24,605 nt of DNA from a virus: positions 1 through 24,605 of the IMG/VR virus record IMGVR_UViG_3300020578_003889; one strand, 5' to 3'. The notes beneath the pieces were generated by a model. It was not told the DNA's origin and did not search any database. It saw only the letters and a list, made by a program, of their open reading frames with translations. Shown here one piece after another: positions 1,356-12,893 of the stretch (position 1 is the stretch's first letter; every line of letters starts with the position of its first letter). Both the position numbers and the translations under genes were made by a program.

Positions 1356-1742
1356 TCAACTGATCTCCGTTCTACCGTTTCCTAAATCATTGCGATCGAC
1401 TCTTCTTGGTCTTGAATCATATGGTTGATTAGCTTCCCATTGTTCATAATTTTCATTTAAGATATTGCGACAAATATTTTGGAACCAACGATCTACGATT
1501 TGATTATCGGTATCGTCCTTACGCTGCATATAGCCAGATTTGACTAATCTAGCAACAAATACATCATTCCAATCTAATTCAAAAGAGCCATTTCCGATAT
1601 CATTTGGATCTAATTCGATACTTAGTATGTTGATATAAGGTTCGCCTGCTTCAGTAGCCAATTCTTTTGGCGTTTTAGTTTTAGTTTTTAACTTTGGCTT
1701 TTCTTCTTTTACTTCTGATTTTTTCTTTAACCAATCAAACAT
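1356..1742 (-). CDS. conserved phage protein of unknown function
   Basis: The start chosen is the ATG at 1742, which shares its A with the queE stop (TAATG), a classic re-initiation overlap; a longer reading from 1754 would intrude into queE. The protein has 128 residues. A Lys/Glu/Thr-rich low-complexity N-terminus (MFDWLKKK, then many K and T, about 1-30) is followed by an acidic folded region with INILSIELDPND, FELDWND and IVDRWFQNICRNI. No catalytic motif or membrane segment is evident. It sits directly downstream of queD and queE, so it is probably cotranscribed with them. It recalls proteins common in marine T4-like phages, but I cannot assign a role. Confidence 0.7.
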   Translation of the reverse strand: MFDWLKKKSEVKEEKPKLKTKTKTPKELATEAGEPYINILSIELDPNDIGNGSFELDWNDVFVARLVKSGYMQRKDDTDNQIVDRWFQNICRNILNENYEQWEANQPYDSRPRRVDRNDLGNGRTEIS

Positions 1743-2593
1743 TATGTTCCCCATTCGTTCTTGAATAATGGCACTTGTAATCTGTCAGAATACCTTAGTC
1801 CGTTACGCATTGCGAATTCTGCTACTCTACGATTATTAAGTGTGTAAATCTTTTCAACCCCGCCCACCGGCATCAAATATACTGGTCCTTCAAATCCTGC
1901 ATCTCTGTATTCTTTCGTTGCTCGCAAGGCATCTGCACAATCTTCTCCTGTGGCAACTACAAATTTAAGATACACATAACCATATTCATCATATTCGTTG
2001 ATGATTTCTGGACGGATAGCATCCTCCCAAGACTCTCCACTGCCGGGAAGTTTTGGACTTACACTAAATGTAAATGTGTTAAATCCTTTGTAATGATGCC
2101 AATTTTGATGAATCCAAGTTTTAAAATCTTTTGATAACTTTTGTGTGCCATTTGTTTCAAAAGTTAATTCTTTTAAACTGTTCATTTTAGGATGATCGAG
2201 CAAATCAATGTATGCTCGTTGCCAACCTAATAATGGTTCGCCACCGGTAATAACTAAATGTTCATCCTGCCACTTGCCATGTGGTAGTATTTGCATGATA
2301 CGATCCACAATAGCATTTGATTCTAACATGGGACTAAGATCTTTGAATCTGGGATCCCACGACGCATAACTGTCGCAACCTGTGCTGACCAGTGGCAGAT
2401 CTTCATATCTATTAAAGTAATGGACTCTTGCTGCTATATCTTCTAGTTCTCTAGATAGTTTGCCTCTAGGCATGCCAAATCCTTGACAGGTAAAGTTGCA
2501 ACCAAATGTGCGTAAGAACACACTTGGTACACCCATATATCTGCCTTCGCCTTGTATTGAATAAAATAGTTCAGCTACTTTGATCTTACTCAT
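1742..2593 (-). CDS. queE: QueE-like radical SAM 7-carboxy-7-deazaguanine synthase
   Basis: QueE converts 6-carboxy-tetrahydropterin to 7-carboxy-7-deazaguanine (CDG) using S-adenosylmethionine, an Fe-S cluster and Mg2+. Family marks in this 283-residue protein are the N-terminal LFYSIQGEGRYMGVPSVFLR, the cysteine segment GCNFTC (C32, C36), the SAM-binding TGGEPLLGWQ (GGEP at 117-120) and TFETNGTQ. The usual CX3CX2C is broken: the position of the third Cys is F39, and the next cysteine, C73 in TGCDSYASWDP, lies 37 residues further on. An insertion therefore appears to separate the cluster ligands. The gene follows queD after two bases, with AAGGA upstream of the ATG inside the queD end. It belongs with FolE and the transglycosylase in making modified DNA bases. 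Confidence 0.88.
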   Translation of the reverse strand: MSKIKVAELFYSIQGEGRYMGVPSVFLRTFGCNFTCQGFGMPRGKLSRELEDIAARVHYFNRYEDLPLVSTGCDSYASWDPRFKDLSPMLESNAIVDRIMQILPHGKWQDEHLVITGGEPLLGWQRAYIDLLDHPKMNSLKELTFETNGTQKLSKDFKTWIHQNWHHYKGFNTFTFSVSPKLPGSGESWEDAIRPEIINEYDEYGYVYLKFVVATGEDCADALRATKEYRDAGFEGPVYLMPVGGVEKIYTLNNRRVAEFAMRNGLRYSDRLQVPLFKNEWGT

Positions 2594-2595
2594 GA

Positions 2596-3120
2596 TTATC
2601 CTTGGTAGGTGGCTGAATTTGCACCATGCTCAAATACTTCTACACTTTTTATACGCACAGTGGGATTGATCGGATAACGCATAGCGCCACCGGCTAACAT
2701 TTCAGCCATCTTGTCATAGCACATCTTGGCAAACATTTCACAGCCTACACCCGGAACGATGCGTAGATCACACAATGCGCCTCGTTCGTATGGTTTGACT
2801 GTTTCTACACTGCCTGTTCCGGACACAGGCATATTGCCTTGATGACTCATTCTCACAAAAAAGTCTAGATGGGGATCATCTTCAGCAATTAATAAGGTGT
2901 GATCAAACATGTAATCTGCCCAGGCTTTGAATTCTTTGAGGCCTCCAAAGTCCATACACCAGTTCTTATCATCTAGTGTGTCGCATTCAAACACAAGTCT
3001 GATACCTATTGAGTATCCGTGCAGTGTAGAACAATGACTGTGTGTAGCACGCCATTGCCTGAAGCAACATGATAGTCCTCGGTCGTTACCATATGTTTTT
3101 GTTGAATAAAACTTTGCCAT
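2596..3120 (-). CDS. queD: QueD-like 6-carboxy-5,6,7,8-tetrahydropterin synthase
   Basis: QueD turns 7,8-dihydroneopterin triphosphate, the FolE product, into 6-carboxy-tetrahydropterin, the QueE substrate. The 174-residue protein shows the T-fold pattern: a zinc/catalytic segment THSHCSTLHGYS (H27, H29, C30, H34), CMDFGGLKEF (about 55-64), FDHTLL with D73-H74, and the C-terminal substrate-anchoring Glu in EVFEHGANSATY. The usual HGH zinc pair reads HGY here (Y36), so H29 may replace the missing ligand; this is inference. The start has AGGAG seven bases upstream. It is the first gene after a late-type promoter and a hairpin that includes part of the Shine-Dalgarno sequence. It could belong to the wider 6-pyruvoyl-tetrahydropterin synthase family, but the adjacent queE favours QueD. 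Confidence 0.85.
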   Translation of the reverse strand: MAKFYSTKTYGNDRGLSCCFRQWRATHSHCSTLHGYSIGIRLVFECDTLDDKNWCMDFGGLKEFKAWADYMFDHTLLIAEDDPHLDFFVRMSHQGNMPVSGTGSVETVKPYERGALCDLRIVPGVGCEMFAKMCYDKMAEMLAGGAMRYPINPTVRIKSVEVFEHGANSATYQG

Positions 3121-3128
3121 TGAATTCT

Positions 3129-3151
3129 CCTATGTTAAATTTTAGCATAGG
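3129..3151 (-). promoter_or_regulatory. inverted repeat overlapping the queD ribosome binding site
   Basis: CCTATG (3129-3134) pairs with CATAGG (3146-3151), and after one mismatch TAAA pairs with TTTA around a single-base loop centre, giving a 23-base near-palindrome. In the mRNA the downstream arm ends in AGG, which is part of the AGGAG Shine-Dalgarno of queD. It could mask the ribosome site or act as a protein operator. Confidence 0.5.
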
Positions 3152-3206
3152 CCTGCAGAATTTGTAAAGCGGGATGAAGTGCCAGGAAGGCCGCTGTTGA
3201 GATATA

Positions 3207-3214
3207 TATTTATA
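3207..3214 (-). promoter_or_regulatory. T4-type late promoter octamer for queD-queE
   Basis: The minus strand carries an exact TATAAATA, the T4 late -10 octamer, just past the stop of the phosphoribosyltransferase gene. Transcription would begin near 3200 and leave a leader of about 80 bases before the queD ATG at 3120. No sigma70 -35 box is evident, as expected for late promoters. Confidence 0.5.
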
Positions 3215-3216
3215 CT

Positions 3217-3765
3217 TTAATTGGCCCACCACGATTCCCATGGGAACACTGCCCAACAAGGATCATCAAATTTATTAATCTTTTTAGCACTGTAATCAAT
3301 GTCTTTAAAATGACTTGATTCGTTGTTAACTAACACTGCAAATTTAACATTGCGATTCCATATGGCGGACCAAGCCGGATGATCGGGCAAGCAACCAGAT
3401 GGCCAATCCCTTTTGATCCATTCCAGTGTAGCACCGGTATCGTTAATGTCGTCTACTATTAAAATGTTTTTACGGTAAGCAGGATCTGTATCTGCGTCTC
3501 CGGAACCGCGTTCTTCTTTTGGTACATATCCAAAAGCCTGTTCGGCCATCCACAGATTACTTTCTGATTCGCCGCCGTCGCGTAAACTAATTTTTAATGT
3601 TTCGCATGGAACATTAAAGTAATGACTAATCATCAAAGCAGGCACTAATCCACCACGAGTAATGCCAAGTACATAATCAGGTAGCCATGCACTATTAACA
3701 ATGTCTCTACAAAGTGAATGCACTAGGCCCTTTAATTCACGATTTGATATAGTAAGGTTATTCAT
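3217..3765 (-). CDS. type I phosphoribosyltransferase (purine/xanthine-guanine type)
   Basis: The 182-residue protein carries the PRPP-binding loop of type I phosphoribosyltransferases, ILIVDDINDTGATLEWI (about residues 100-116), and an upstream GITRGGLVPALMISHYF segment typical of the xanthine-guanine/hypoxanthine group. Such enzymes join a free base to PRPP to give a nucleotide. Base specificity cannot be read here. The C-terminus is Trp-rich (CWAVFPWESWW), which may form the base pocket. Its ATG overlaps the stop of the upstream small gene as TAATG. Lying next to queD/queE, it could salvage guanine released when a transglycosylase exchanges bases in DNA; that link is inference from position. 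Confidence 0.8.
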   Translation of the reverse strand: MNNLTISNRELKGLVHSLCRDIVNSAWLPDYVLGITRGGLVPALMISHYFNVPCETLKISLRDGGESESNLWMAEQAFGYVPKEERGSGDADTDPAYRKNILIVDDINDTGATLEWIKRDWPSGCLPDHPAWSAIWNRNVKFAVLVNNESSHFKDIDYSAKKINKFDDPCWAVFPWESWWAN

Positions 3766-11336: not shown

Positions 11337-12893
11337 TTATTGCTCCAAATGTGATTGAATGATATTAGTGGCATCAAAATCTGACATTTTATTTTCAGTG
11401 TTGTCCACAGTTTCAAAAAGTGCATTATACATTGTGTTTGAATTTTTTGTCTTTTTACCTTTGAAGCCTCTAGTGCCAACGATATCCATCCAGTATCTAT
11501 CATAATGTTCTATAATTGACTCAGCAGTATTACGATCCGGTGCTGTAAATATTGCATCAACTATGTCTTCAAATTTTGTGTGATCGCCGTTACGATACCA
11601 AAGCATAGCAGGTCTTTCGCCCGAATCAAATTTTCTATTTGCTCTTTGTACTGATTCTAAATGCATCCATACATTATGTCCCATCATTAATACATAGCTA
11701 AAACTATCCCAACTTGTCTTGCCCTCTTTACCATTTTTATTAATATCCCCGGGTTTATAAATGCATATGTCTTTGATAAGTAAATGTTTGCTTATTGGAC
11801 TTTCATCAAATACATCAAAAATACCATCCTGTAGTACAGCATCTTTGAATGTTCTTGTATCAGTGGCATACTTTTTATCATCTGCACTGGGACTCATTCT
11901 GTAGCACCATTTACCTTGGTTTGGTAAATCAATATGATGATAGACTTGTCCATTGGCAGTTGCAAGAAACGGACTTGCACAATCAAAACTGATAGTAAAA
12001 TTAGGATTGACATATTTACGAACAGCACGTTGGATAACTGTGAGTAATACTGCCCATTCTAACTTTGATGTACCTAAGAAGTGCATCCAGTCATGCACAC
12101 CCTCTTGTAGTAAATTATCATAACGCAAAGTTACTAGACGTTTAAGTATTAAATGTATATCACACATGTTCTGACCGCCCATGGCCCAACCGTCAAAATG
12201 TGTGTCAGGATATTTTGTAGGGTTGCAGTATTCTTTCATGATCTCGTACCATTCGTCAGCTGACGTATGATTGTCACCTTGTAATACATTCAAAAACTTT
12301 GCACCGCCGTTGTGTTTGCCTTTTCGATGCTGCATGAAATATTCATTATTAAACTTTGTAGCATCAACTGCTTGTTGTAAAGCTAGTTTTTTGTCGGTAG
12401 TACTGAAACCAATTTTTGCTGCAACTTTTTGATCATGAATGACCCAGGTAGGAATATCCAGGATCATACCATAGTCAGCGATACCGTCTAGCCATGCAAG
12501 TACAGACTCGCGTTTCTTTTGTGCTTTAGCGCAACCTGAATTGGCTCGCCAATCGCCTTCCCATAGACCCTTGGCAATCTGGAATCCTCCTGAATCTCCT
12601 AACATAAATGTGTCAGGTCCCCGTTTACGAACCATGTCTTCGCTGGGATCATCTTTAGACAAATCTAAGTTTGCGTGTCCACCTGAGTACAGGCTCCACC
12701 GGTAGGGGAACAGGGCCTGTTGGCCGTTGAGCCAATTAAATTGCTCCATGTCCGATAATGCCTGTGGCATACGAGCAGGATCAACATAATCATTGTTAAC
12801 ACGTTGTTTTCCTATAAAGGTTGCATAGAAACCAGATATAGCAGGCAAGAATATAGCATAATCTGATTGTTTAGAAGTTAAATCATCCTGCAT
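11337..12893 (-). CDS. dpdA: TGT-like DNA guanine transglycosylase (DpdA-type)
   Basis: The 518-residue protein aligns by eye with queuine tRNA-guanine transglycosylases. It has MLGDSGGFQIAKG (D100, the general acid/base-type aspartate of DSGGxQ), YGMILDIPTW (D146, at the base-recognition Asp), FLNVLQGDN, FDGWAMGGQN in the GG(L/A)-type base loop, HFLGTS, and SFDCASPFLA, whose D304 matches the nucleophile of FDC. The C-terminal CxCxxC zinc site of tRNA enzymes is absent and the flanking domains differ, as expected for DpdA proteins that insert 7-deazaguanines into DNA. FolE, QueD and QueE in the same window support that role. The start overlaps the sulfotransferase-like gene by 11 bases. An RNA substrate cannot be excluded. 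Subfamily is not assigned. Confidence 0.78.
   Translation of the reverse strand: MQDDLTSKQSDYAIFLPAISGFYATFIGKQRVNNDYVDPARMPQALSDMEQFNWLNGQQALFPYRWSLYSGGHANLDLSKDDPSEDMVRKRGPDTFMLGDSGGFQIAKGLWEGDWRANSGCAKAQKKRESVLAWLDGIADYGMILDIPTWVIHDQKVAAKIGFSTTDKKLALQQAVDATKFNNEYFMQHRKGKHNGGAKFLNVLQGDNHTSADEWYEIMKEYCNPTKYPDTHFDGWAMGGQNMCDIHLILKRLVTLRYDNLLQEGVHDWMHFLGTSKLEWAVLLTVIQRAVRKYVNPNFTISFDCASPFLATANGQVYHHIDLPNQGKWCYRMSPSADDKKYATDTRTFKDAVLQDGIFDVFDESPISKHLLIKDICIYKPGDINKNGKEGKTSWDSFSYVLMMGHNVWMHLESVQRANRKFDSGERPAMLWYRNGDHTKFEDIVDAIFTAPDRNTAESIIEHYDRYWMDIVGTRGFKGKKTKNSNTMYNALFETVDNTENKMSDFDATNIIQSHLEQ

Follow-up and report, generated by a model that had tools for sequence, protein, structure and literature searches.

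The stretch of DNA that was analyzed (referred to as the window, 24,605 nucleotides) is a 24.6-kb virus record, in which the PHROG search found a DNA polymerase gene that we read as T4-type and in which FolE is also encoded. On the minus strand, a phosphoribosyltransferase gene is followed by queD and then by queE, which is the next gene of the queD unit (Table 1). In Synechococcus phage BUCT-ZZ01, a phosphoribosyltransferase gene lies between queE and queD, and because such a gene is kept there as well, the enzyme encoded beside queD may act on a deazaguanine base as a possible substrate. Elsewhere on the minus strand (11337–12893), the window encodes a 518-aa protein that is kept in 22 of 26 relatives and also occurs in PA5oct-like phages, and for which no match was found in Pfam, PHROGs, PADLOC, or the PDB. 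Its relative in Vibrio phage 2.275.O adjoins queF, a yhhQ-type transporter gene, and queC, and judged from this gene context the protein is a candidate base-inserting (DpdA-like) enzyme.

An initial annotation of the region upstream of queD had described a late promoter, a leader of about 80 nucleotides, and a 23-nt near-palindrome that includes the AGG of the Shine-Dalgarno (SD) sequence, all of which can be read from the letters as claimed. The TATAAATA at 3207–3214 is an exact match on the minus strand, the leader has the length given, and the near-palindrome (3129–3151) is an inverted repeat with 11-nt arms (3129–3139 and 3141–3151) that are 91% complementary, whose downstream arm holds the AGG of AGGAG. 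Taken alone, the promoter 8-mer and the palindrome appear to be about at chance level: the AT-rich window contains three copies of TATAAATA versus 4.0 expected, and the leader on its own folds no better than its shuffles (z of −0.3 to −0.5). The case presented here rests on the comparison with relatives, which brought out the main feature that the annotation had overlooked, namely a conserved 46-nt H-type pseudoknot (3150–3195, minus strand) that shares two bases with the palindrome. It is the single match of the model R1 in the window (51.5 bits). The P2 helix of the window pairs as GGC-A-CU/AGGCC, and internal P2 mismatches occur in some leaders of its group (group A, see below), the window among them.

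Table 1. Genes, promoter elements, and predicted RNA elements around the queD leader of the window
Feature	Position	Strand	Basis
Phosphoribosyltransferase gene, directly upstream of queD	3217..3765	-	Pfam
queD, gene under putative control	2596..3120	-	Pfam PTPS E 7.5e-16; PHROG QueD-like
queE, next gene of the queD unit	1742..2593	-	PHROG QueE-like E 8.3e-51
Late-promoter core TATAAATA, predicted start ~3201	3207..3214	-	Exact match; TAAATA conserved in group A
P1 5' strand AGCGG	3191..3195	-	R1 match; P1 pair types
Loop L1 CCUUCCU, family consensus start nCU	3184..3190	-	Parsed leaders
P2 5' strand GGC-A-CU, one bulged A	3178..3183	-	Pairs with 3150-3154; family covariation
Loop L2 UCAUC, last C adjoins P1	3173..3177	-	That C in every parsed leader
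P1 3' strand CCGCU	3168..3172	-	P1 pair types, covariation
Loop L3 UUACAAAUUCUGC, consensus nnAnAnAYUCUGC	3155..3167	-	Parsed leaders
P2 3' strand AGGCC, final CC = first CC of SD hairpin	3150..3154	-	Family covariation
SD-hiding hairpin CCUAUG...CAUAGG (the palindrome)	3129..3151	-	Inverted repeat; folding energy; variants in relatives
Possible internal sigma70 promoter: TTTACA (3163-3168), 18 nt, TAAAAT (3139-3144), TGC before	3139..3168	-	Group A conservation
Shine-Dalgarno AGGAG	3127..3131	-	Sequence

Distribution and covariation of the pseudoknot core

The pseudoknot was found to be conserved upstream of queD in several hundred phage loci, many of them from lake and ocean phages. When QueD relatives were fetched from IMG/VR by protein, 74 of the 80 loci carried the core just upstream; the core was absent from the other six (L017, L038, L053–L055, and L078), several of which seem to have an upstream reading frame reaching the queD start. 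A motif-only pattern scan of viral contigs gave at least 119 stretches, and the readable ones lead back to queD: in the readable matches listed, queD follows directly or after one inserted gene, and it is present in all 106 listed matches that have 3 kb of downstream sequence. In L119, L126, and L131, the extra genes between the element and queD encode a cupin-like protein, a protein that is methyltransferase-like by eye, and an unknown product. In large contigs (101–355 kb), R1 gave exactly one strong match in each of 25, and no match in one that has queD but no such leader. In these scans, the element sits at the head of the queD unit, once per large phage contig. L056 (1347–1392) and, at the same place, L061 have a second copy some 1.6 kb upstream of the one before queD; it carries a long AU hairpin, is not directly followed by a gene, and is perhaps the remnant of a queD that was lost or has moved.

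The motif was absent from eight isolate phages with queD, a blastn search with two consensus leaders as queries gave no match in 50,697 phage records, and four further large phages gave weak matches only, one of which is the leader of Vibrio phage 2.275.O described below. Among 84,980 bacterial and archaeal genomes, four pattern matches were obtained, three of them by chance. The one real match lies on a 5.9-kb contig of a metagenome bin and has a leader like the phage ones.

Across relatives, the core is ordered as P1, L1 (nCU...), the P2 5' strand, L2 (UCAUC), the P1 3' strand, L3 (nnAnAnAYUCUGC), and the P2 3' strand, with about a dozen nearly invariant unpaired bases. In 46 diverse cores, which were selected by P1 pairing, changes on both sides were observed in four of five P1 pairs and in five of five P2 pairs. 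Double-change cells of P1 and P2 together number 106 versus 38.7 in shuffles, and the covariation score is 0.585 versus 0.167 and is lost when the partner strand is slid by one to three columns; loci from one collection share ancestry, and such counts are of related sequences rather than of independent events. A looser parse without the P1 requirement gave a complete best nearby P1 partner in 158 of 162 sequences (best of 17 offsets). The third P1 pair varies between C-G, A-U, and U-A, and the P2 strands occur in 46 co-varying combinations (for example, GGCAU/AUGCC, GACGC/GUGUC, and GACUU/AAGUC, further pairs being GGAA/UUCC and GGGC/GUCC). It is unlikely that P2 is a search artefact because it was never a filter and because a second leader set, described below, was fetched by QueD protein only.

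The loops are nearly invariant at many positions, with the restriction that in the first leader set some L1, L2, and L3 positions are set by the parsing rules. Positions 2 and 3 of L1 are C and U in all 155 parsed leaders (partly by the parsing rule), and the first L1 base is C (35%), A (33%), or U (32%). The base directly 5' of the P1 3' strand is C in 155 of 155, and the base before it is U (95%), A (3%), or C (2%) in L2 loops of 5 nt. Taken together, these patterns point to a conserved leader RNA with a covariation-supported structure, as is expected of a riboswitch.

The competing helix over the ribosome site and the promoters

The P2 3' strand is common to a second helix, which covers the SD in group A, whereas in groups B and C it covers the start codon. 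In group A (74 unique leaders including the window), the hairpin CCUAUG...CAUAGG lies over the SD and its first two C are the last two P2 bases; arm variants are CCUAUA/UAUAGG, UCUAUG/CAUAGG (with a U-G pair), and CUCUAUU/AAUAGAG, and the loop varies in length. The initial annotation had staked its reading on conservation of the palindrome among related phages, and the SD hairpin is indeed kept in the window's group, its stem showing U-G wobbles and some compensatory changes across related leaders. For the window, the calculated hairpin energy is −5.0 kcal/mol when the shared CC is included and 0 when it is left out. Other readings of this region were dropped, namely an intrinsic terminator since no U-run follows the hairpin, a DNA dyad operator since the arm spacing varies, and a tRNA after a tRNA check.

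Groups B (35 leaders) and C (37 leaders) are without the SD hairpin; here, the P2 3' strand and the bases following it pair with the start codon. The pairs covering the start codon include UGCCAUUG/CAAUGGCA, UGUCAUUGUUA/UAACAAUGGCA, and GUCAUC/GAUGGC, and more rarely AAGUCAUC/GAUGACUU, UGUCAUCUU/AAGAUGGCA, and CCAUAAC/GUUAUGG. A helix that covers the ribosome-binding site (RBS) and starts inside the P2 strand was found in every leader of group B (35/35) and group C (37/37), and the base after CAU is complementary to the base before AUG in 75 of 75. In three leaders of the second set described below (L363, L371, and L394), the SD is hidden by ACUCC/GGAGU-type helices, which again start inside the P2 strand. 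In another three (L478, L485, and L487), P2 is GGUA/UACC and the second QueD codon is GTA or GTG instead of GCA; codon 2 and P2 have changed together, and the pairing of UACCAUAUU with AAUAUGGU(A/G) across the AUG is thereby preserved. The RBS-covering helices comprise 5–11 bp in most leaders, and in a few (e.g., L489 and L367) the competing helix is weak or was not found.

When the P2 strand was blocked instead of free, the calculated cost of opening the SD and AUG went from 6.4 to 3.5 kcal/mol in group A, from 9.8 to 3.3 kcal/mol in group B, and from 8.9 to 5.1 kcal/mol in group C. These drops of 2.9, 6.6, and 3.8 kcal/mol compare with 1.4, 1.7, and 0.4 kcal/mol for shuffled strands, the contrast being weakest in group A, partly because much of its hairpin lies outside of the P2 strand. 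The second leader set was obtained from three more QueD sets fetched by protein only, in which R1 finds the core in 78, 54, and 68 of 80 loci each. Its 88 new leaders contain the competing helix in 83 cases (swapped control: mean 47.3 and maximum 62 in 200 runs), and in 82 of the 88, the opening cost falls by more than 1 kcal/mol once the P2 strand is blocked. Judged from the shared bases in the 155 and 88 leaders, the leader would thus have two mutually exclusive structures, one of which hides the ribosome site.

A quick QueD tree (145 rows, with long branches in places and many weak forks) has the leader types interleaved, and its well-supported branches by themselves force at least 13 changes for group A, 11 for group C, and 9 for group B. 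Leader type and enzyme have thus been recombined, but pairing with the start region has persisted.

The promoters differ among the groups as well. A TAAATA core ends 5–25 nt upstream of P1 in 52 of the 74 group A leaders, versus 2.5 expected and 7 in the largest shuffle. As in T4 late promoters, a TATAAATA-type element is located about one turn upstream of the predicted RNA start. With its core conserved in this way, the late promoter of the initial annotation is credible, and the transcript would start at the P1 edge. In groups B and C, sigma70-like promoters are commoner before P1 (28/34 and 14/36, respectively, by a loose rule). In group A, 66 of 74 leaders moreover contain TGnTAn[AC][AC]T within the loop of the hairpin, a −10 form that is absent from groups B and C, and 63 of 74 have it together with nnnACA inside L3, 17–18 nt upstream. 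This is a possible internal promoter, which would yield an mRNA without the switch.

Comparison with known leader elements

Rfam 15 gave no credible family match to the queD leader at gathering and permissive thresholds, and the absence of a matching preQ1 family agrees with the initial annotation, which had seen no clear preQ1 riboswitch consensus. In 18 phage records, the preQ1-I model (RF00522, types I–III) stayed far below its threshold, with no match above 39 bits and a single 9.3-bit match that overlaps a motif, and cmscan of the core regions returned no RF00522 match. PreQ1-I riboswitches are defined as H-type pseudoknots with a P1 of 5–6 bp (PMC10622847). In these, UC or AC with a strictly conserved C precedes the P1 3' strand, a U as the first L1 base contacts the ligand, and the C next to P1, the closing G-C, and the A-rich L3 read its guanine-like face (PMC11625349). 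The queD element resembles them as a small H-type pseudoknot with a 5-bp P1 in the leader of a deazaguanine-pathway gene, with UC or AC before the P1 3' strand. It also has the fixed closing G-C, the fixed C 5' of the P1 3' strand, and the A-rich L3 (PMC11625349). In contrast to preQ1-I, the first L1 base is C, A, or U in equal parts, matches to the RF00522 covariance model stay below the threshold, L3 comprises 13 nt and ends with YUCUGC, and the P2 of 4–5 bp does not contain the SD. Furthermore, the queD pseudoknot would expose the ribosome site rather than hide it, and the element is almost confined to phages. By the tests run, it is a new riboswitch candidate of preQ1-I-like architecture outside of the preQ1-I family. 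PreQ1-II and preQ1-III (RF01054 and RF02680) are likewise pseudoknotted leaders of queuosine-related genes; however, preQ1-III has no match to the queD leader, and the only preQ1-II matches score 13.4 and 15.1 bits against a threshold of 47, skip the aptamer, and fall on the tail of the SD hairpin.

An H-type pseudoknot that acts on translation is also found in another T4-type phage leader, that of the T4 gene 32 mRNA (PMC3014915). The queD element, however, is followed by queD in all readable cases among the matches listed and is not found before gene 32, the gene of the binding protein; it also differs by its conserved loop bases and by the strand-sharing competing helix over the SD or AUG. 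Glutamine riboswitches are carried by aquatic and marine T4-like phages (PMC9004378), but that class is known from bacteria (glnA motif), whereas the queD element has one real match in the bacterial and archaeal genomes scanned. A description of a queD phage riboswitch was not found in the papers searched, which covered few subscription journals and no bioRxiv preprints.

In Vibrio phage 2.275.O, queC is preceded by a short pseudoknot leader that is preQ1-I-like (L259:1844–1887, corresponding to about 334843–334886 of MG592671). It reads AGCGG-ACCGUAACC-CCGCU-AUAUAAAUUC-AGGAG (R1 E 0.006) and has P1 and the start of L3 in common with the queD element, of which it is a possible relative. Rfam does not report this leader, and when viral contigs were scanned with a pattern for the short Vibrio-phage type, no copy was found.

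Proposed switch, rival explanations, and significance

The comparison of relatives shows a predicted pseudoknot core together with an alternative helix that reuses the P2 3' strand over the RBS. We propose that the queD leader acts in cis as an RNA switch of translation and that this switch is most likely a metabolite riboswitch, and we put the probability of this reading at roughly 65%. The initial annotation had suggested a translational switch or operator centered on the hairpin; the switch is supported by the conserved leader element, but the role of sensor would pass from the hairpin, which would be the expression platform only, to the upstream pseudoknot. P2 and the RBS helix would exclude each other: as long as the pseudoknot is stabilized, P2 would keep its 3' strand and the ribosome site would be open (ON), and once the strand is free, it would fold onto the SD or AUG (OFF). 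Late transcription from 3207–3214 would begin at the 5' edge of P1, so that late mRNA would carry the switch.

That the loops hardly vary is an argument for a specific binder. As in preQ1-I, the C beside the P1 3' strand is invariant, P1 is closed by G-C throughout, and L3 is rich in A, and the stabilizer may therefore be a small molecule with a guanine-like face. Candidates would be CDG, preQ0, preQ1, or a pterin, i.e., intermediates of the pathway served by queD. QueE is present in 24 of 26 large contigs (in two of these weakly), and a recognizable QueC is mostly missing, the matches above the cut-off being just short partial ones in 5 of 27 records. CDG may thus be the last intermediate made by these phages themselves, which a host QueC could take further, and for this reason it serves as our example ligand. 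Biosynthetic genes are not usually turned on by a ligand, and this ligand-ON logic is the least certain step of the model. The model in its full form, an essentially phage-confined new riboswitch class that senses a 7-deazaguanine intermediate (e.g., CDG) and turns queD translation on, with SD- and start-codon-hiding platforms exchanged repeatedly under one aptamer, is put forward tentatively and falls somewhat short of even odds. Counts over related sequences, the weak contrast in group A, the few weak or missing helices, and the P2 mismatches speak against the switch reading.

The same two structures might also be set by a phage or host protein that binds the pseudoknot, for which QueD itself and a T4-type translational regulator are candidates. 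Such an operator would be in line with the conserved loops and the covariation as well, and T4-like phages do use a leader pseudoknot in this way, as gp32 acts on its own mRNA leader (PMC3014915). Autogenous binding of QueD is nevertheless awkward, as the core is nearly fixed while the downstream QueD proteins diverge to ~31–45% identity. Moreover, the C beside P1, the closing G-C, and the A-rich L3 look like a small-molecule pocket, and we consider a protein operator unlikely.

A leader that has no ligand, whether an RNA thermometer or a static device for tuning translation, is quite improbable; here, melting or ribosomes would open the RBS helix, and the only role of the pseudoknot would be to stabilize the 5' end. 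The RBS-covering helices of 5–11 bp in most leaders are in favor of this reading, which however leaves both the nearly invariant loop bases and a covarying pseudoknot that shares a strand with the RBS helix unexplained. Signals at the DNA level only, with the palindrome as an operator around the internal promoter (TTTACA, 17–18 nt, TGnTATAAT) and a leader RNA that is no switch, would account for the promoter-like hexamers conserved in 63 of the 74 group A leaders. This reading appears highly improbable, as groups B and C have the pseudoknot but no palindrome and cover the start codon rather than the SD, and as the variable spacing of the palindrome arms and the kept U-G pairs fit RNA rather than a DNA dyad.

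Riboswitches have been described as rare in phages (PMC9004378). The phage cases found so far belong to classes known from bacteria. If the reading of the queD leader as a metabolite riboswitch is true, a widespread and nearly phage-only pseudoknot switch would mean that phages meter deazaguanine chemistry by RNA, in a pathway that can feed protective DNA bases. The riboswitch field would gain a small aptamer candidate (~46 nt) whose ligand can be guessed, and the shared-strand design, with SD- and start-codon-hiding versions under one core, would provide natural experiments in the evolution of expression platforms.
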